From contig JAQWBH010000001.1 in assembly GCA_028707405.1 (NCBI GenBank), forward strand, positions 32,735 to 96,734: 64,000 nucleotides of DNA. Reading direction: 5' to 3'. Below are positions 55-50,359 of the stretch, in pieces. The notes under the pieces were generated by a model that was given only the letters and a program-made list of their open reading frames with translations, did not search any database and was not told the origin of the DNA. The DNA comes from Parabacteroides sp. GTDB lineage: Bacteria > Bacteroidota > Bacteroidia > Bacteroidales > Tannerellaceae. Both the position numbers and the translations under genes were made by a program. Positions within the stretch are counted from its first letter, which is position 1, and every line of letters starts with the position of its first letter.

Positions 55-2316
55 TTAATATTCGGCGTATTGGTCGGATGTATCGGGGATGTAGCCAAAC
101 CCTACATCATCTGAATACTTCTCTGTAATTAAATTGTATACAGGAACGGTCTTTATATAATATCTTTCGCAGTCGCAATTATGTACTAATATACCATTTG
201 CAAAATACTCATGCGCGTCCTCCACGGTAAGGTTATAGACTGCCATTTTCACGTTTTCTTCCTTCACTTGCACAACTTCTGGAACAGTATCTACGTTTTG
301 AATATTTATTAGCTGTGAATTCATTCCCACATTGCTCACAAACAAAAATCTTTTCATCGATCTTAGAAGCCCTTCTCCAAGCAGATTTACAAGCATTCGA
401 ACAGAACCGTGCCGTATCCTTTCTAGTGATATCTTCAAATTCCTTACCACACTGCTCGCATATCCTTTTAATCGGAGTTCTAAGTTTATAAATTTCTTTT
501 CCGTGGTCAGAATGCCATTTCCATCCCGTTTCCGTCCCATGCCATTCTTTAGCAAGATATCGAATCTCATCACAGTGCTTTCTTTTTCGTGCAAGGATAT
601 CGGGATCTTTATTCTGCTCATCCGCGTGCTCTTTGAGATGTTTATGTCCATCGATGCATATAAGGTTATCAAGTGAATTATTGAGTGGGTTCCCGTCCTT
701 ATGGTGGATATGATATCCTTCTGGAATTTTTCCATGTTTTGATATCCATATTTCTTGATGTAATTTTTTAACACCATTTTGAATATTTGTTGCGTTCGCG
801 GTATAATATTTTCTATGCTCCGCTCTTTTAGAACTTGGGTATCTTCGGAATTTGATTCCATTAAATTCGATTTCGTCAACGTCGGGTACTCGATGGGTGT
901 AACTTGCTGGAATAATTTATCACCATATCTTAAAGAATCCAATCGTATAAATCCTTTTCCCTCAACGAATATCGGATGGCATCCAGTGCCCGTTAACGTT
1001 TTTTTATTGTTTAATGTTAATGTGTTTACGATTTCGTTGAAATTTGTGATGCCACACGCCGCGACTTCTTTATATCCATCCCGTGTTAAAACTTTATCCC
1101 CTTGTTGTATTTGTTCAATTGGTATATTCCCATAACTTGTGGTAATAAAAGTCCCAGCGATAAAACAGCAGTGGTCGTTCTGTTTAATTGGTTTATCTTC
1201 CCCTCGTTGTGCAGCCTTGATATCCCAAACATATCCGGATTTTTCCCTTATATTACCCTTGCATGATGGGTCAATCTGGATTAAATCAAGAGAATAACCT
1301 GACGAAACTTCCCGTATTCCATCTAATACATTATTATCCGCATCTTGTACGCTTAATCCACATTTAGCTAATTCGACCTTGAATGATGCGGCGGATGGAT
1401 CTACGATCACACTCCATACCTCTTCAGAACCAATGAACTCAATTAAATCCTGCGCATATTCAGAATCGGTTTTTTGTCTGCCATGCTCCTTAGAGTCATA
1501 GTAATATTCCTTTTTAAGATATCTCTTCCGCCCATCATTCCCCCACAACTGAAATACACATGGATTATTGGTGCCATAGTCAACCGATACGTGCTTAGAG
1601 GTTATATTGTTCCAAATTTCATCAGGTATTGGAGATACATGTCTATCCGCGCTGAACATGTCATAGATCGCACCTTCTGCTAAAACCCATTGCCCTAGAA
1701 TATATCTCTTATAAAACAGTCCCGTATAGAACTGCTTCAACCTCACGACATATTCTGGAGGTAGGTTCTTATTTTCATCTAAGAAAAATTCCCATGACTT
1801 CAGTGAGATTTCATGCTCTCTATCAAGAAAGTTGGTTTTAAGCCAGTGATACGGCCCCTCCGGATTGCATGTCCCGATAAATTTTGCATCATATTCTGAA
1901 AGCCTGGATATTAACATCTGAAAAAAGTTCTCAGGCCATGTAGTGATTTCATCACCATATGCAAGAGCTAAAGTAATACCTTGAATCTTATCCACTGACT
2001 TTTCATCATACGCGCCGGCTGTATAAAAATGATGGTTGTATATTTTTCCTTCTCCGATAGTCCGGCTATATGAAAAATTCGATTTGCCTACGATGTCTTT
2101 TAGAGGCATTAGAACGTTTCTATATAGGGTTTTATCAGACTTCCCTACAAACATAATGTTAGAGTCTGGATATCGTGTCAGCAATAATAAAAAAGCAATT
2201 AACGACGAAATGGTTTTCCCAGATCGCACAGACCCGACTAGGATATTGAGAGTTTCATCGCAGTTAGCCATCACATCTATCTGTTTCGCGCTAAAGGTCC
2301 CAGGTTTAAACGACAT
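55..2316 (-). CDS. terL: Terminase large subunit (TerL) interrupted by an intein
   Basis: This is the packaging motor ATPase and nuclease of a tailed virus. The N-extein has a Walker A motif, GSVRSGKT, at residues 28-35, and a Walker B D122-E123 followed by ITTW. The C-terminal RNase H-like nuclease ends with a D-H-x-x-D-x-E-R-Y motif that is split by an intein at residues 384-713. After splicing the protein would be 423 aa, a normal TerL size. It starts 1 nt after the TerS stop, so the two are co-transcribed. The intein must splice for a working nuclease site. Family assignment is firm; splicing is inferred from intact intein end motifs. Confidence 0.93.
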   Translation of the reverse strand: MSFKPGTFSAKQIDVMANCDETLNILVGSVRSGKTISSLIAFLLLLTRYPDSNIMFVGKSDKTLYRNVLMPLKDIVGKSNFSYSRTIGEGKIYNHHFYTAGAYDEKSVDKIQGITLALAYGDEITTWPENFFQMLISRLSEYDAKFIGTCNPEGPYHWLKTNFLDREHEISLKSWEFFLDENKNLPPEYVVRLKQFYTGLFYKRYILGQWVLAEGAIYDMFSADRHVSPIPDEIWNNITSKHVSVDYGTNNPCVFQLWGNDGRKRYLKKEYYYDSKEHGRQKTDSEYAQDLIEFIGSEEVWSVIVDPSAASFKVELAKCGLSVQDADNNVLDGIREVSSGYSLDLIQIDPSCKGNIREKSGYVWDIKAAQRGEDKPIKQNDHCCFIAGTFITTSYGNIPIEQIQQGDKVLTRDGYKEVAACGITNFNEIVNTLTLNNKKTLTGTGCHPIFVEGKGFIRLDSLRYGDKLFQQVTPIEYPTLTKSNLMESNSEDTQVLKERSIENIIPRTQQIFKMVLKNYIKKYGYQNMEKFQKDIISTIRTGTHSIIHLITLYASMDINISKSTRMSRIKIPISLHEKESTVMRFDILLKNGMGRKRDGNGILTTEKKFINLELRLKGYASSVVRNLKISLERIRHGSVRMLVNLLGEGLLRSMKRFLFVSNVGMNSQLINIQNVDTVPEVVQVKEENVKMAVYNLTVEDAHEYFANGILVHNCDCERYYIKTVPVYNLITEKYSDDVGFGYIPDTSDQYAEY
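178..1167 (-). other. Intein in TerL nuclease motif (330 aa)
   Basis: The intein spans residues 384-713 of the TerL reading frame. Block A starts at C384 (CFIAGTF). Block B has the G-T-G-C-H-P-I motif with H447. Block F is VYNLTVEDAHEYFANG, and block G ends V-H-N followed by Cys +1 of the C-extein. All residues needed for class 1 splicing are visible. Removing it restores N-D-H-C-C-D-C-E-R-Y, the third acidic motif of the nuclease. The central part of this frame resembles no domain; the homing endonuclease lies there in another frame. Confidence 0.92.
233..916 (-). CDS. HNH homing endonuclease frame, out of phase inside the TerL intein
   Basis: The -1 frame relative to the intein is open for 227 codons, from just after TGA-TAA stops (917-922) to a TAA at 233-235. 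It reads as a complete HNH homing endonuclease: an N-terminal segment with FRRYPSSKRAEHRKYY, then LHQEIWISKHGKIPEG, the HNH core YHIHHKDGNPLNNSLDNL, and two C-terminal treble-clef-like zinc motifs (CEQCGKEF...CSNAC and CEQCGNEF...CSRSC). There is no ATG, GTG or TTG anywhere in the frame, so it cannot be started conventionally. It would need -1 frameshifting from the intein frame, or it reflects two compensating indels (real or sequencing). Coding content is clear; expression is unknown. Confidence 0.65.
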   Translation of the reverse strand: MIPASYTHRVPDVDEIEFNGIKFRRYPSSKRAEHRKYYTANATNIQNGVKKLHQEIWISKHGKIPEGYHIHHKDGNPLNNSLDNLICIDGHKHLKEHADEQNKDPDILARKRKHCDEIRYLAKEWHGTETGWKWHSDHGKEIYKLRTPIKRICEQCGKEFEDITRKDTARFCSNACKSAWRRASKIDEKIFVCEQCGNEFTANKYSKRRYCSRSCASEGRKRENGSL

Positions 2317-26299: not shown

Positions 26300-26450
26300 T
26301 TCTCCACGCTAAAGCAGTGGAGCTTGCGCTTCTACGTCTTAGTTACCTAAGCAGAGCACATTAGGCAGGTTGACAACTGCCCGAAGCATGATATTTTTAG
26401 CTGCATTGAAATCAGCATTTTCAGCATGCCCGCACTCAAGGCAAACGAAA
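26294..26450 (-). ncRNA. Putative omega/reRNA of the TnpB element
   Basis: In TnpB systems a guide RNA overlaps the 3' end of tnpB and runs to the right end; the flanking DNA is the guide. Here the minus strand downstream of tnpB carries a hairpin (26302-26322) and ends in GTTGAC at 26294. The expected guide would be the minus-strand sequence of about 26274-26293, beginning AATGTGCACA. The RNA's 5' limit is a guess. Confidence 0.45.
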
Positions 26451-27418
26451 GATGCCTGATTCTTTCTGTTTTTCTTATCGGTATATCCGCATACCGAGCA
26501 AGCCCTTGATGTATTTCGAGGATCTACTGCAACAACAAGAACTCCTAACAGTTTTGATTTATACTCAATAAAGTTCCTCAATTCAAAAAAAGCCCATTTA
26601 CCAATAGATTCTCGAACAGCTTTTGAAACCGTTACGTTCTCTTTAATGCCTGAAATATCTTCTAAGGCAATCGAGCGATTTGTGTCTTTAGCTGTGTTTA
26701 CAATTTCCTTTGAAATACAATGATTAGTATCTTTTTTGAATCTACGTTCTCTACCACTGATCTTTTTAAGATGCTTCTTAGCTGAATATGTACCAACTGA
26801 TTGGAGAACTGCTTTTATTTTTGCGTATCTTTTCCTTACTTTGGTACATTTATCACCTGAATATACTTTACCATCGGATGTAACAGCCAGATTAACAATA
26901 CCTAAATCTACACCTAATACACCGTCTGAATCTATAGGTTCAGCGTCTGGAAGATCTACAACAATCATTAAGTAGAAAGTTCCCTTGATATAGATAAGAT
27001 CAGCTTGCCCTCTAACTCGGTTTGCTTCGAGTTTTCTATATTCTCCATATTGAATCCCTACTTCTATTCTTCCATCTAAGGTTAATATAGAAATAGTATC
27101 GGCTGATTTGTAGGACAGGATACGTTGGTCGTATACGGTAGCTCCATGAAGATCAAAATCATGAAGTGTTTTTTTATCTACCTTATACGATTCTGCTACT
27201 TTTCCAACTGCTCTTACTGTCATTTGAGCCGATAATCCATATTTCTCTCTAATTTCATAGTATAGTTCTTTTTGAATTCCGATTTTACCGAATACTTTTG
27301 TATTGAATGCGAAAATTGAAACAAAGTTACATGCTTCATTGAACTTCTCCATAGTCTTCAATAGACTATCATGCTGTTCTTTTGTAGTTATCAGTTTAGT
27401 TTTAACAGTTAGAAGCAT
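26339..27418 (-). CDS. tnpB: TnpB, RNA-guided endonuclease of an IS200/IS605 element
   Basis: 359 aa. The RuvC residues are present: D171 (GVDLGIVNLA), E253 (ALEDISGI) and D336 (NADFNAAKN). A zinc motif C-S-V-C-G ... C-L-E-C-G lies between the last two. The N-terminus (MLLTVKTKLITTKEQHDSLL) is the usual OrfB start. It appears intact, so it may be active as an RNA-guided nuclease that keeps its element in place. Its promoter is TTATAAATA at 27453-27461 within a small palindrome. Mobilisation would need TnpA from elsewhere. Confidence 0.9.
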   Translation of the reverse strand: MLLTVKTKLITTKEQHDSLLKTMEKFNEACNFVSIFAFNTKVFGKIGIQKELYYEIREKYGLSAQMTVRAVGKVAESYKVDKKTLHDFDLHGATVYDQRILSYKSADTISILTLDGRIEVGIQYGEYRKLEANRVRGQADLIYIKGTFYLMIVVDLPDAEPIDSDGVLGVDLGIVNLAVTSDGKVYSGDKCTKVRKRYAKIKAVLQSVGTYSAKKHLKKISGRERRFKKDTNHCISKEIVNTAKDTNRSIALEDISGIKENVTVSKAVRESIGKWAFFELRNFIEYKSKLLGVLVVAVDPRNTSRACSVCGYTDKKNRKNQASFVCLECGHAENADFNAAKNIMLRAVVNLPNVLCLGN

Positions 27419-31389: not shown

Positions 31390-32763
31390 ATGACTAAAGA
31401 AATAACAGTAAGCTCTTCAATTGACGACTCAACGAAATTACAAAAACGAATTAATGCCGAGGGGAACACACCCGCCAGATACACATTTCAAGGCGATGAA
31501 CTCGAAATTAATTCACTAATCCGATTTTTCAATTATACCGAATGCTCGGGAAATGGAATTACATTTAGACTAATGGAAAATGCCCCAACAAATCCATTTA
31601 GCGAACAGGTTCCCCTAGTAGGTTCTAAGTTCACGAATGGGGCTGAAGGATTGAATTTCCATGATATAATTTTCGAAGGAAATCGAGACATTCAGAATAA
31701 GGTCCCGAAGAAAAACGGAAAGAATTGGGGATTAGGTTATCATAATTTTATTGGATTGGGCTCGAATAAAAGTATCTCTTTTTCGAATGCGGTTAATTGT
31801 GAATTTTATAATTTAGAATTTAATAATTCGCTTGGAGATGGCATACGTCCCGAGGGTGGAACCAATATAAAAGTCCACGACATCAAAGGAAAGCGTACAG
31901 GTCACGATACCATCAATTACAGTGCCGTGAAAGGTGGCGAAGTATATAATGTCGATCTGATGCTAGGTGTTGGCTCTGGCGTTCGTATGCGCTCCTGCCA
32001 GAACGTGAAAATCCACGATTGCAAACTAGATAATAGTGCGGGATTGACTTATGGTCCCGGTATCCAGATACAGAGTACTGCTTTAAATTGGATCAGTTCA
32101 GGAATTGAAGTTTATAATAACTATGTACACGACACTTACGGTCCTGCTGTTCAAGTAGCCGGGAAAGTCCCCAACAATGGATTAGTATCAATCCACAATA
32201 ACATCTTTGAAAACTGCGGTAAGATGCCCAAGAGTACGGTTCGCCCAATAAACGGAGGAGTAGCTTTTGAAGGTATTCCCGTTGAGATCTATAATAATAC
32301 TATTGTGGGAAGTTATGGGTTTGGATTGGTCGCGGGTGCTTATGATGTTGGTTCTACGTACTCGTTTTCTGCAAAATTATATAGGAATATCATAACTGGC
32401 ACAAGGAAATGCCTCACTCCGAATTCCCAATCCGGTACTGGGATTGCTAATTTTGTAGGATCCAGATGTCAGTTAACGTGTTCTGAAAACTGCCTATATG
32501 AAAATCTAGCTGAAGTGTACAATGTAAAAAATACAAATGGCATTTCAAAAGATCCACTGTTTGTCGGGGAAGGAGACTATCATCTCAAAACTTCAAGCCC
32601 ATGTAGACTGTCAGGATATCAGTTAGGACGATATGCAGACACCACAACTGACGATCCCGAAACTCAAACACCCACGTCTATTTTTGTACACTGTACTGAA
32701 AGCGAAGCTGCTGAGATCGTTAGAAAATATAATTCTAATTATATAGTTTATAGGAGCGCATAA
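31390..32763 (+). CDS. Beta-helix protein, probable tail spike
   Basis: 457 aa. Right-handed beta-helix rungs run from residue 70 to 380 (FHDIIFEGN, FYNLEFNNSLGDGIR, VHDIKGK, IHDCKLDNSAG, VYNNYVHDT, IHNNIFENCG, IYNNTIVG). It lacks a signal peptide, so it is likely a virion or cytoplasmic protein rather than surface-anchored. A C-terminal 30-residue module (IFVHCTESEAAEIVRKYN) is separate from the helix. GGAG precedes the ATG. First gene of a plus-strand operon. Confidence 0.75.
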   Translation: MTKEITVSSSIDDSTKLQKRINAEGNTPARYTFQGDELEINSLIRFFNYTECSGNGITFRLMENAPTNPFSEQVPLVGSKFTNGAEGLNFHDIIFEGNRDIQNKVPKKNGKNWGLGYHNFIGLGSNKSISFSNAVNCEFYNLEFNNSLGDGIRPEGGTNIKVHDIKGKRTGHDTINYSAVKGGEVYNVDLMLGVGSGVRMRSCQNVKIHDCKLDNSAGLTYGPGIQIQSTALNWISSGIEVYNNYVHDTYGPAVQVAGKVPNNGLVSIHNNIFENCGKMPKSTVRPINGGVAFEGIPVEIYNNTIVGSYGFGLVAGAYDVGSTYSFSAKLYRNIITGTRKCLTPNSQSGTGIANFVGSRCQLTCSENCLYENLAEVYNVKNTNGISKDPLFVGEGDYHLKTSSPCRLSGYQLGRYADTTTDDPETQTPTSIFVHCTESEAAEIVRKYNSNYIVYRSA

Positions 32764-36842: not shown

Positions 36843-37760
36843 ATGAATACCACTGTTTTTGTAGAGGATTTCAAAAAAACAACAACGAAAATACGCCTGA
36901 ATATCCCGACCGTTTATAAAAAGAATGCCACCGTCGAACTCTTAAAAAGCTCTGTTTTAATCGCAGTCTCCGGCGCGCTACGTGTTTATATCGCGTGCCT
37001 ATTACTCCAAACTCAACCAAGTATCATAACATGTATTGCAGGCGGCCTAATCATCTACAGTGTATATACGCTTGACAGATCTCTGGATTCCGAGGAGGAT
37101 GTTATAAACAGGAAAGAACTAAGTGGTTCAAAAAAAGAAATCGGGATTGCAGCGTCGGTAATTACTTTTTTGATTGGAAGTTATGTACTGGCAAAAGAAG
37201 GTATGCTGGCAGTTGCATTTTTACCTCTGATAATCGGATACCTCTACAGTAAAGGTATTAAAATCGGGAAATTTACGTTTAGATTGAAGGGCGGGCTTGG
37301 AATTAAAAACGTAGTGGTTGGTATTACGTGGGGTATTTTCATCGCTTGGCTCGCGTGTAATACCTGTAAAAGTGTTATTTCAATCGTGTTAGTATTCATT
37401 TTATACGGAATCAAAACGGGCATTAATTCGGTTATAGACGATTTCAAAGATGTCAACGGGGATGCACTTACAGGACTTAAAACACTTCCTGTAACATTAG
37501 GAGAAAGAAATACTCATCGTTTGCTTACCAGCCTGCATATAATCACTCATTTGATACTCGGTATTGCATTGATTCTAAAATTGATAGCATATGAACCTCT
37601 TGTACTTTTATCCAGCTTTATATGTGGATTGATCTGTATTCAGAGATATACAAAAGAGGATTATACATCAATCCAAAAAGTAGGATCAACGTTTTTTAAG
37701 GATGGAGAATCAACGATTACTATCATATTAAGAGGGATTGCGGGTACATTTTTTGTATGA
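36843..37760 (+). CDS. UbiA-family prenyltransferase
   Basis: 305 aa integral membrane protein with about eight hydrophobic segments. Both Asp-rich prenyl-diphosphate/Mg sites are present: D78-x3-D82-x3-D86 (LDRSLDSEED) and D199-D200-x2-D203-x3-D207 (DDFKDVNGD) followed by LKTLPVTLG. The family attaches isoprenoid chains to aromatic or glycerol-phosphate acceptors (archaeal lipids, quinones, methanophenazine-like carriers). Substrate cannot be told from sequence. On a virus it is an unusual auxiliary gene, perhaps altering host membrane lipid or electron carrier. Its 3' end overlaps the end of the convergent regulator gene. Confidence 0.85.
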   Translation: MNTTVFVEDFKKTTTKIRLNIPTVYKKNATVELLKSSVLIAVSGALRVYIACLLLQTQPSIITCIAGGLIIYSVYTLDRSLDSEEDVINRKELSGSKKEIGIAASVITFLIGSYVLAKEGMLAVAFLPLIIGYLYSKGIKIGKFTFRLKGGLGIKNVVVGITWGIFIAWLACNTCKSVISIVLVFILYGIKTGINSVIDDFKDVNGDALTGLKTLPVTLGERNTHRLLTSLHIITHLILGIALILKLIAYEPLVLLSSFICGLICIQRYTKEDYTSIQKVGSTFFKDGESTITIILRGIAGTFFV

Positions 37761-48085: not shown

Positions 48086-50359
48086 ATGACAGACAATCCG
48101 GAAAATGTATTTGTAAAATGTCCTAAATATGACCGAGAACTTCACGATTGGTCGTTATCATATCCAAGAATTAGAGAAGCATTTGCAAATCTGGGGAATA
48201 ATAGAGAGTCTGTTTTTATTAATGAATCTGCTCTTGCTCTTGCAAATCTCGGGGATATTATCAATCCGAAAGAGAAACTTCAGTTTCAGCGAATGGATTA
48301 TGCATTTCCTGAAGATCAAATTATAGAGATCGTCCATTCATACGCTGAAGATGACTGGACCCCCGAAATGAGCGAGTCTCTTAGGAATAGTATTGTTCAG
48401 TCCAGAGAAGCTGCACTTAATGAGCGGTTATATACAAACAATCTCGTTAGAGGGTGGAACGAGTACGAAGTTCCAACCGTTGATACAAAAAGCTACTATT
48501 ATCTGACAAATTCCGGAGTGTTCCGAGTCGTTGAAACCATCAACGAGGAAACTAGGCAAAGTTCATTTGCTACTCGGGAAGTTTGCAGGACTCCTTTTAT
48601 ATTGTGTGGAATCAGCGAACCATTGAATGATGACACGGTTTACTATAAGATTCGATATTCTACATACAACGGAACCGTGAAGGAGTTCTGGGCAAGTCAA
48701 AGTACAATTCTATCCCGTAAAGAGATGAAGACTATTTTTAACGCGAAGGGTATAAACTGCCCTGAAAATGTCCTGTTGATTGAAACCATTGATTACATCA
48801 GTCGAAGCATTGCTGAATTCGGATCACGATTAAAGAAAGAGTTCTCGGCAAAAAGAAACGGCTGGAACGAAGATCGTACTATTTTTGTTATAGGGGATCA
48901 CGGAATAACGTCAAAGGGTTCAGAACCCATACTGTCAGTAGCCGACGATAGTAAGGGATTCACTGAACTGGAAAAGAAAGGAAACGTCGAATCGTGGGCA
49001 ACCGGAGTTAAGCCGCTTTTAGACTTTGATGTAATCCGGTTTAAATGCTACGATGCCATGACAGCCCCTTTAAAAGCAGTTCTCGGAGTTGAAAGCCATG
49101 CAACTGACCACTACGGTAACACTTCCTGCGGTAAAACACTGTCCGCGTGGGTGGCTCTATCTATGATTGGAAATGCGGAAAAGCTCACCATCGGAGCTAA
49201 GAGCACAACAAAGGGGATACTTGTAAGAGTTCGGGACTTCTCAGACTTACCAATTCTGATAGATGAAAGCTCGGACGCTGGCGATCATCTTGCAGACCTG
49301 GTGTATACCCTAACAAGTAACAAGGGGAGAGTCAAGAGCACTGTAACAGGTGGTAGAGATGGCGGGGAGGAATATCATACAACTGCACTATTTACGGGTG
49401 AAAAGCCAATATGGGATGAATTGCCAAACTCCGGACAGCGATACCGAGTCAATGAACTGACGGATACCCTCCCGGATTTACCAACTTCTGAAATTAACGG
49501 GGTAAAAAAGGCAATTGCCAACAATCACGGACATATTATTGAGTTCTATATTCACGAAATATTCAAGGAACTGGAAGCCGGGACACTATCATCCTTGTAT
49601 GATGCCTGCTTTGACAAACTGCCAGAGACGAATTCTAACATTGAAGGTCGATCCAGATCTATATTTGCCTGTATAATGACCGCAGGAACGTTATTAGAGA
49701 GGATTTTTCAGAGAATCGGACTTCCTGAAAGAGATCCGAGTAAGATTGTAAGTAAATATTTCCAAAAATGTATTTTGGACAATCCAGTAGAACTTGAATA
49801 TATACGCGCTCTCCGTGTTGTTCTAGATTGGGTACACTCCGATTATGGAAGATTCGCGGAAGTTGACTTGAAGTATGATGATGTGACGATTCGAGACAAA
49901 TCTAAAAGATATGGATGGATCGACAACGATTTTATTGATATTATAGGTTCAGAATTCACAAAAAAGATGAAAGATGATGGATTCTCACCTACTAAAATTA
50001 AGCAGGATTGGGGAGATCAAGGCATTACATTATGCAATGATCCAACCAGGAAGGGAGCTTGCAGGTTCACACGGGAAAAGAAGACCGTCGCAGGTGTAAG
50101 AATTAACCGAGCAATCGCGGAAGAACTGACGGGGTTATATTACGATGAAACTGAAATGAACGATTGCCAGCTCCCACAAGATGAAAAGATTAAATGGATA
50201 ATGAAGACTATTCAATATCTGACAGAGCGCAAAGGCGAGGCTGATATACAGCTTATACGGCAAATTGAGAATATCCCTGATTTAGATGATATGTTGAACA
50301 TTCTGACTAAATATGGCAAAATCTTAAAGATAAATCAAACTTCTTATAAATATATCTAA
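48086..50359 (+). CDS. DUF927-family replication helicase, 757 aa
   Basis: The protein has the DUF927 superfamily-3-like ATPase core: an N-terminal region to about residue 150, a beta-rich DUF927 part with YYLTNSGVFRVVETINEE and FVIGDHGIT, Walker A G344-N-T-S-C-G-K-T351, and Walker B L-I-D393-E394-S-S. A C-terminal winged-helix-like domain follows (residues about 580-757). DUF927 proteins act as replicative or accessory helicases in phages and plasmids. Gene position beside an iteron array supports a replication role. TATA-like GTATAAATT lies near 48038. Confidence 0.8.
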   Translation: MTDNPENVFVKCPKYDRELHDWSLSYPRIREAFANLGNNRESVFINESALALANLGDIINPKEKLQFQRMDYAFPEDQIIEIVHSYAEDDWTPEMSESLRNSIVQSREAALNERLYTNNLVRGWNEYEVPTVDTKSYYYLTNSGVFRVVETINEETRQSSFATREVCRTPFILCGISEPLNDDTVYYKIRYSTYNGTVKEFWASQSTILSRKEMKTIFNAKGINCPENVLLIETIDYISRSIAEFGSRLKKEFSAKRNGWNEDRTIFVIGDHGITSKGSEPILSVADDSKGFTELEKKGNVESWATGVKPLLDFDVIRFKCYDAMTAPLKAVLGVESHATDHYGNTSCGKTLSAWVALSMIGNAEKLTIGAKSTTKGILVRVRDFSDLPILIDESSDAGDHLADLVYTLTSNKGRVKSTVTGGRDGGEEYHTTALFTGEKPIWDELPNSGQRYRVNELTDTLPDLPTSEINGVKKAIANNHGHIIEFYIHEIFKELEAGTLSSLYDACFDKLPETNSNIEGRSRSIFACIMTAGTLLERIFQRIGLPERDPSKIVSKYFQKCILDNPVELEYIRALRVVLDWVHSDYGRFAEVDLKYDDVTIRDKSKRYGWIDNDFIDIIGSEFTKKMKDDGFSPTKIKQDWGDQGITLCNDPTRKGACRFTREKKTVAGVRINRAIAEELTGLYYDETEMNDCQLPQDEKIKWIMKTIQYLTERKGEADIQLIRQIENIPDLDDMLNILTKYGKILKINQTSYKYI

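Follow-up and report, generated by a model that had tools for sequence, protein, structure and literature searches.

How is an HNH endonuclease made, and what would it do, when its whole reading frame lies out of frame inside an intein that is itself open from end to end? The question is raised by a terminase large subunit (TerL) gene in a stretch of 64,000 nucleotides of Parabacteroides sp. contig JAQWBH010000001.1, referred to below as the window. The explanation we favor is that the DNA of the TerL intein also encodes an HNH protein in the -1 frame. This protein is probably translated separately, from an internal start of its own, and would cleave DNA as the homing endonuclease of the intein, which would be removed from TerL by splicing.

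The TerL intein and the HNH ORF in the window

The minus strand of the window has a 756-aa open frame at 55-2325 that contains TerL and the intein. The TerL precursor (58..2316, minus strand; ATG at 2316, stop at 57-55) is of the PBSX type (TIGR01547, 125.6 bits, cut-off 105.05). It consists of the N-extein (2316-1168), a 330-aa intein (178..1167) and the C-extein (177-58), all on the minus strand. Counted along the stop-to-stop ORF, the intein (window 1167-178) covers residues 387-716; the last 40 residues of TerL follow it. The splicing residues are present: Cys1, the block B motif T..H (residues 61-64; 976..987, minus strand), the terminal Asn and Cys+1 of the C-extein. Blocks F/G (VYNLTVEDAHEYFANGILVHN) lie at 178..240 on the minus strand. 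In an alignment of 28 inteins, window included, H64 and N330 are invariant and T61 is found in at least 90%. The splicing domain profile PF14890 scored 42.8 bits (cut-off 35.8) in a profile search of the window frame, and the C-terminus profile TIGR01443 matches the end of the intein. The frame is uninterrupted from start to finish, and IntN and IntC are not on separate ORFs in the window. Thus the ORF, both profiles and the 28-intein alignment confirmed the original prediction of an open intein frame with splicing motifs.

In the AlphaFold2 (AF2) model of the intein, taken in 10-residue blocks, pLDDT is 82-98 in residues 1-90 and 291-330 and 35-50 in residues 91-290, a region of about 200 residues that interrupts the splicing domain. 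A Foldseek search with this predicted model gave the gp41-1 intein as top match (E 1.7e-6), consistent with a Hint fold, and gp41-1 is the nearest solved intein both by sequence and by fold. The gp41-1 intein is a split intein of the fractured-gene kind. The insert thus appears to be an intein, predicted from its motifs and modeled fold to splice. The stop-free intein frame over the HNH DNA would be translated into a disordered linker, as modeled, and the linker would leave with the intein on splicing.

The nested HNH ORF (233..916, minus strand; 227 aa and a stop) is in the -1 frame of the intein. Its HNH_3 motif (residues 51-88; 653..766) matches PF13392 with 51.1 bits (cut-off 24.8). Two zinc-finger-like CxxC...C regions follow, C153-C176 at 389..460 (CxxC at 460-449) and C193-C215 at 272..340 (CxxC at 340-329), all on the minus strand. 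The HNH and zinc residues are intact, and the AF2 model has a mean pLDDT of 94.9. In an alignment of 47 relatives made without the window, 29 columns are invariant and 17 nearly so; the ORF matches all of them. Thus the window DNA holds a complete HNH endonuclease out of frame in an open intein. The claim that this frame has two CxxC motifs and lacks ATG, GTG and TTG also holds; a listing of all 228 codons of 233-916 showed that CTG is absent as well.

No solved chain matched the window HNH by sequence at E 0.01. Its only match in 395 genomes of the phylum (E 1e-10) was itself, and the same was true of the window TerL in 197 related genomes (E 1e-30). GTDB contigs gave ten distant matches to the window copy.

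Nesting among HNH relatives

HNH relatives were taken as the best 80 of 178 and the best 80 of 315 matches, using a profile built from nested copies; the class proportions given here describe window-like HNHs and are not a census of inteins. In each of the first seven relatives from IMG/VR (L002-L008, including two near-identical pairs), the intein ORF is open and terminase-like and the HNH occupies its -1 frame, as in the window. Of the first 100 loci among the matches listed, window-type nesting was found in 68 with both intein ends and in four with the C-end. Three of these 100 were nested in the other frame (one with the N-end only), ten had intein halves around the HNH with no continuous frame, and 15 were without an intein; there was no in-frame fusion.

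The enlarged set contained 185 loci, window included, and was reduced to 170 after HNH copies with more than 90% identity were dropped. Among these listed and de-duplicated relatives, in 138 of the 170 the intein frame is open and the HNH is nested in it out of frame. In 135 of the 138 the relative frame is that of the window (both intein ends found in 128, one end in seven), and in three (L084, L085 and L103) the HNH is in the other forward frame. The HNH lies between split-intein halves in nine of the 170 listed, 21 have no intein or open frame, and an in-frame fusion of HNH and intein was found in none (0/170). Two further loci among those listed (L165 and L206) are open in the +1 frame without an intein profile and may be due to chance or be ShiLan-like (see below).

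Host proteins were profiled at ten nested loci. A terminase was matched in six (L058, L066, L068, L073, L100 and L105), and intein domains alone were matched in the host ORFs of L057, L075 and L088. The host at L091 (3147-5252) is a DegT/DnrJ/EryC1 aminotransferase with a nested out-of-frame HNH intein, so the arrangement is not confined to TerL. Three loci (L057:1191-4772, L068:1107-4757 and L075:1197-4796) have an in-frame LAGLIDADG domain in addition to an intein overlapped by an out-of-frame HNH; a terminase match was found in L068 only of these three. A single terminase ORF at L073:1-2832 has two Hint regions, each overlapped by a +1 out-of-frame HNH ORF, the first of which scores only 58 bits. 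Tetrasphaera phage TJE1 and Acinetobacter phage Highwayman have database records in which TerL is the sole annotation at the nested locus.

Stops and constraint in the overlapping frames

Each HNH was recoded synonymously, either with GC-matched codons or by shuffling the copy's own codons, and stops in the intein frame were counted. All 72 nested +1 copies among the matches listed have no intein-frame stop, against an expectation of 5.0 stops per copy in the GC model and 2.5 in the own-codon shuffle; 0.49 or 7.1 open copies, respectively, would be expected among the 72. In the same set, ten split copies have a mean of 8.3 stops (7.8-8.4 expected) and 15 intein-less copies a mean of 6.3 (6.4-6.8 expected), and none of these 25, which have no intein frame to keep readable, is open. 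Openness helps to define the nested class and closure the split class, and the test rests on the share of open frames among loci picked by their HNH.

For the window copy alone, 3,000 GC-matched recodings gave one intein frame free of stops, and 3,000 shuffles of its own synonymous codons gave such a frame in 1.9% of cases; its open frame by itself is therefore moderately unlikely. It had been estimated that two frames open over this length would arise by chance about 2 times in 100,000. The arithmetic is right for equal bases (1.8e-5), but the figure overstates the surprise at this one copy because the HNH protein, once given, already leaves the intein frame open at the rates above. The real strength of the case for dual coding comes from the relatives, where nesting is common. 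The frame of nesting is also accounted for. About 18 stops are expected from HNH proteins in the other forward frame versus about five in the window-type frame, a difference that explains the near-constant nesting frame without frameshifting.

In the proposed comparison of codon positions across relatives, the HNH DNA varies most at third positions of the HNH frame and the N-part of the intein at third positions of the intein frame. Over the HNH DNA, mean identity in 138 pairs (which overlap each other and were aligned in the HNH frame) is 0.50 when read as HNH and 0.29 when read as intein. Of the two overlapping frames, conservation is higher in that of the HNH. Intein-frame identity is 0.29 in nested pairs versus 0.23 in seven non-nested pairs, and the linker may be constrained beyond the mere lack of stops. 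The arrangement is a long overlap on one strand, about 200 codons, with different constraint on its two frames.

Proposed internal initiation and its alternatives

Start codons were surveyed in 140 de-duplicated open-frame copies (L165 and L206 included), of which 139 could be anchored on the YY motif. A standard start between the upstream stop and the HNH core was found in 136 of the 139 among the matches listed (ATG in 127 and GTG in nine); an earlier and smaller survey gave 73 of 75. Half of the starts lie 25-31 codons before the YY motif, with the 5th to 95th percentile at 42-18 codons before it. In the same zone and the same listed copies, ATG is found in 60 of 139 in the intein frame and in 42 of 139 in the third frame. 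A Shine-Dalgarno (SD) duplex of -7 kcal/mol or stronger precedes 45 of the 136 starts; among 1343 ATGs taken from the same ORFs as controls, the share is 4.3% (p = 5e-12). L059, for instance, has AAGGAGGT and L007 has AGGAGG. The SD is weaker than -7 kcal/mol at the other 91 of 136 starts, the median is -4.55 kcal/mol, and several weak-SD copies have A-rich leaders. Own ATG or GTG starts, SD enrichment and no excess of slippery sites make internal initiation the best-supported mechanism for the family. From these sequence features, the nested HNH is most likely a separate gene, translated by internal initiation and not by frameshifting.

One option in the original prediction was that -1 frameshifting within the TerL intein produces the endonuclease, a form of dual coding that keeps TerL spliceable. 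Dual coding of that kind is retained in our interpretation; frameshifting itself we consider very improbable. It would fit the -1 position of the HNH in 135 of 138 nested copies among the matches listed, as well as the lack of a start codon in the window, but the frame bias already follows from the expected stop numbers and the relatives have starts of their own with SD enrichment. Moreover, a scan for canonical X XXY YYZ heptamers in phase found none in the window's zone; of 72 nested copies, nine have such a heptamer in the right phase, compared with 13 and 17 for the two phases that are irrelevant here. Indels are a still weaker explanation. Canonical inteins carry the endonuclease in frame, also in mycobacteriophage TerL inteins, and an ancestral in-frame endonuclease could have been moved out of frame by two compensating indels or could appear so through sequencing indels at both edges. 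Relatives that restore an in-frame fusion were looked for, and among the 170 listed none was found; 138 have an open intein frame with the HNH outside it, and many separate contigs share one offset. Neither kind of indel agrees with these counts, and we regard such a shift as having almost no chance of being correct.

Separate translation of the HNH from an internal start is least supported at the window copy, which has no standard start. It shares this property with only two of the other anchored copies, L043 and L174. The window HNH ORF opens with TGA TAA | ATT ATT. A candidate non-standard start is the second ATT (AUU, 911..913, minus strand), 35 codons ahead of the YY anchor and at the limit of the range in relatives. 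Upstream, GGTGAT (919..924, minus strand) encodes Gly-Asp of the intein, supplies the TGA stop before the HNH ORF and is a 6-nt match to the 16S anti-SD, located 5 nt from this ATT with a duplex of -7.4 kcal/mol. AUU is a rare start codon elsewhere (infC). Locus L043 (2750-3419) has a nested HNH with a strong AGGAGG, no standard start near it and an ACG at SD spacing. Weak non-standard starts may recur among nested copies, or such copies may have lost their start not long ago.

The endonuclease of the window could also be silent: the start has been lost, only the intein frame is expressed and the copy is in early decay after fixation, in an architecture that is still nested. Zero ATG, GTG, TTG or CTG in 228 codons speaks for this, as does the rarity of such a lack: among the matches listed, all but three of 139 nested copies have an ATG or GTG. 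Against it, the frame is intact and all 29 invariant and 17 nearly invariant columns are kept, so any loss of the start would be recent; in addition, the 6-nt anti-SD match stands at the usual distance from an AUU. We give silence of this copy somewhat less than an even chance. Between weak initiation at the AUU at 913-911 behind GGTGAT and a silenced endonuclease, the evidence is about evenly balanced.

Probable mobility and possible relation to split inteins

A search with the N-extein gave six TerL relatives (identity 43-72%; L135 and L136 are alike), none of which has an intein at this site. These intein-free sites fit a mobile element, as expected. The TerL proteins of Highwayman and BP10 share 32% identity and are too diverged to place an empty site.

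In six named phage records the same HNH lineage forms a gene of its own next to terminase genes. IntN and IntC are on separate ORFs around the HNH in L124, L044-L046, L049, L050, L062, L086, L128 and L129. L124 (454-2771) is Lactobacillus phage CL2; its record lists large terminase and HNH as two genes and leaves the IntC piece unannotated. The lineage thus occurs nested, between split halves and beside intein-less terminases, a natural series for studying the origin of split inteins. An HNH tree was built from 98 rows (L063 and L129, short or broken, were omitted). The nested label changes at least 12 times on it by parsimony, and well-supported branches force three of these changes; the tree settles neither a single clade of nested copies nor the number of switches. 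We offer, as a rather doubtful proposal, that out-of-frame nesting is a stable home of the HNH lineage and the missing link between ordinary and split inteins. Once the HNH is translated from a start of its own, stops arising in the intein frame would produce the three-piece fractured layout, and split inteins would come from overlapping genes.

Comparison with known systems

A close published case is the ShiLan domain of phage DNA methylases, which, like the Pacc40 insertion, has an out-of-frame HNH (Arsenault, Gosselin and Gogarten 2025, PMC11855218). Its authors infer spread by homing, report no ribosome binding site and propose leaderless initiation at GTG; no intein splicing domain could be detected in ShiLan, which presumably remains in the protein (PMC11855218). 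A genome announcement reports a ShiLan-like methylase with an out-of-frame HNH (PMC12613952). Like ShiLan, the window has an insertion that keeps the host frame open and carries an HNH in another frame. Unlike ShiLan, the insertion in the window is an intein whose splicing motifs are intact, and the nested relatives are SD-enriched. Mycobacteriophage terminase inteins sit in the N-terminal ATPase domain (PMC5050341). The window resembles these canonical TerL inteins in having a Hint domain in TerL and endonuclease DNA between blocks B and F (PMC5050341), and it differs in its out-of-frame endonuclease and in the location of the intein near the TerL C-terminal end.

The HNH homing endonuclease I-HmuI (PDB 1u3e) matched the window HNH by Foldseek with an E-value of only 0.09. 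I-HmuI is encoded in an intron. Fractured genes, in which split inteins have a separate endonuclease between the halves, were reportedly described by Dassa et al. in 2009. The nine de-duplicated HNH relatives with IntN and IntC on separate ORFs are like these, whereas in the window both intein halves are in one continuous frame that overlaps the endonuclease gene.

Among the titles and abstract openings listed by a literature search in which subscription journals are thinly covered, there was no out-of-frame endonuclease inside an intein. What appears to be new here is the intein with a nested out-of-frame HNH gene; out-of-frame HNH insertions without intein domains were already known. When an endonuclease is sought in the intein frame alone, the nested gene is missed and the element passes for an endonuclease-free intein with an odd linker. 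Nesting would also uncouple the dose of the endonuclease from that of the essential host protein.

Other genes in the window

A transposase (phrog_506, phrog_12300) is found at 26339-27418 on the minus strand, inside the phage region of the window. The assembly gave no match to MCR or to archaeal S27e, and the host is therefore likely to be bacterial. Two genes on the plus strand are unusual among phage genes, one for a disaggregatase-related/beta-helix protein (31390-32763) and one for a UbiA prenyltransferase (36843-37760). A DUF927/primase-helicase-like protein is encoded at 48086-50359, also on the plus strand.
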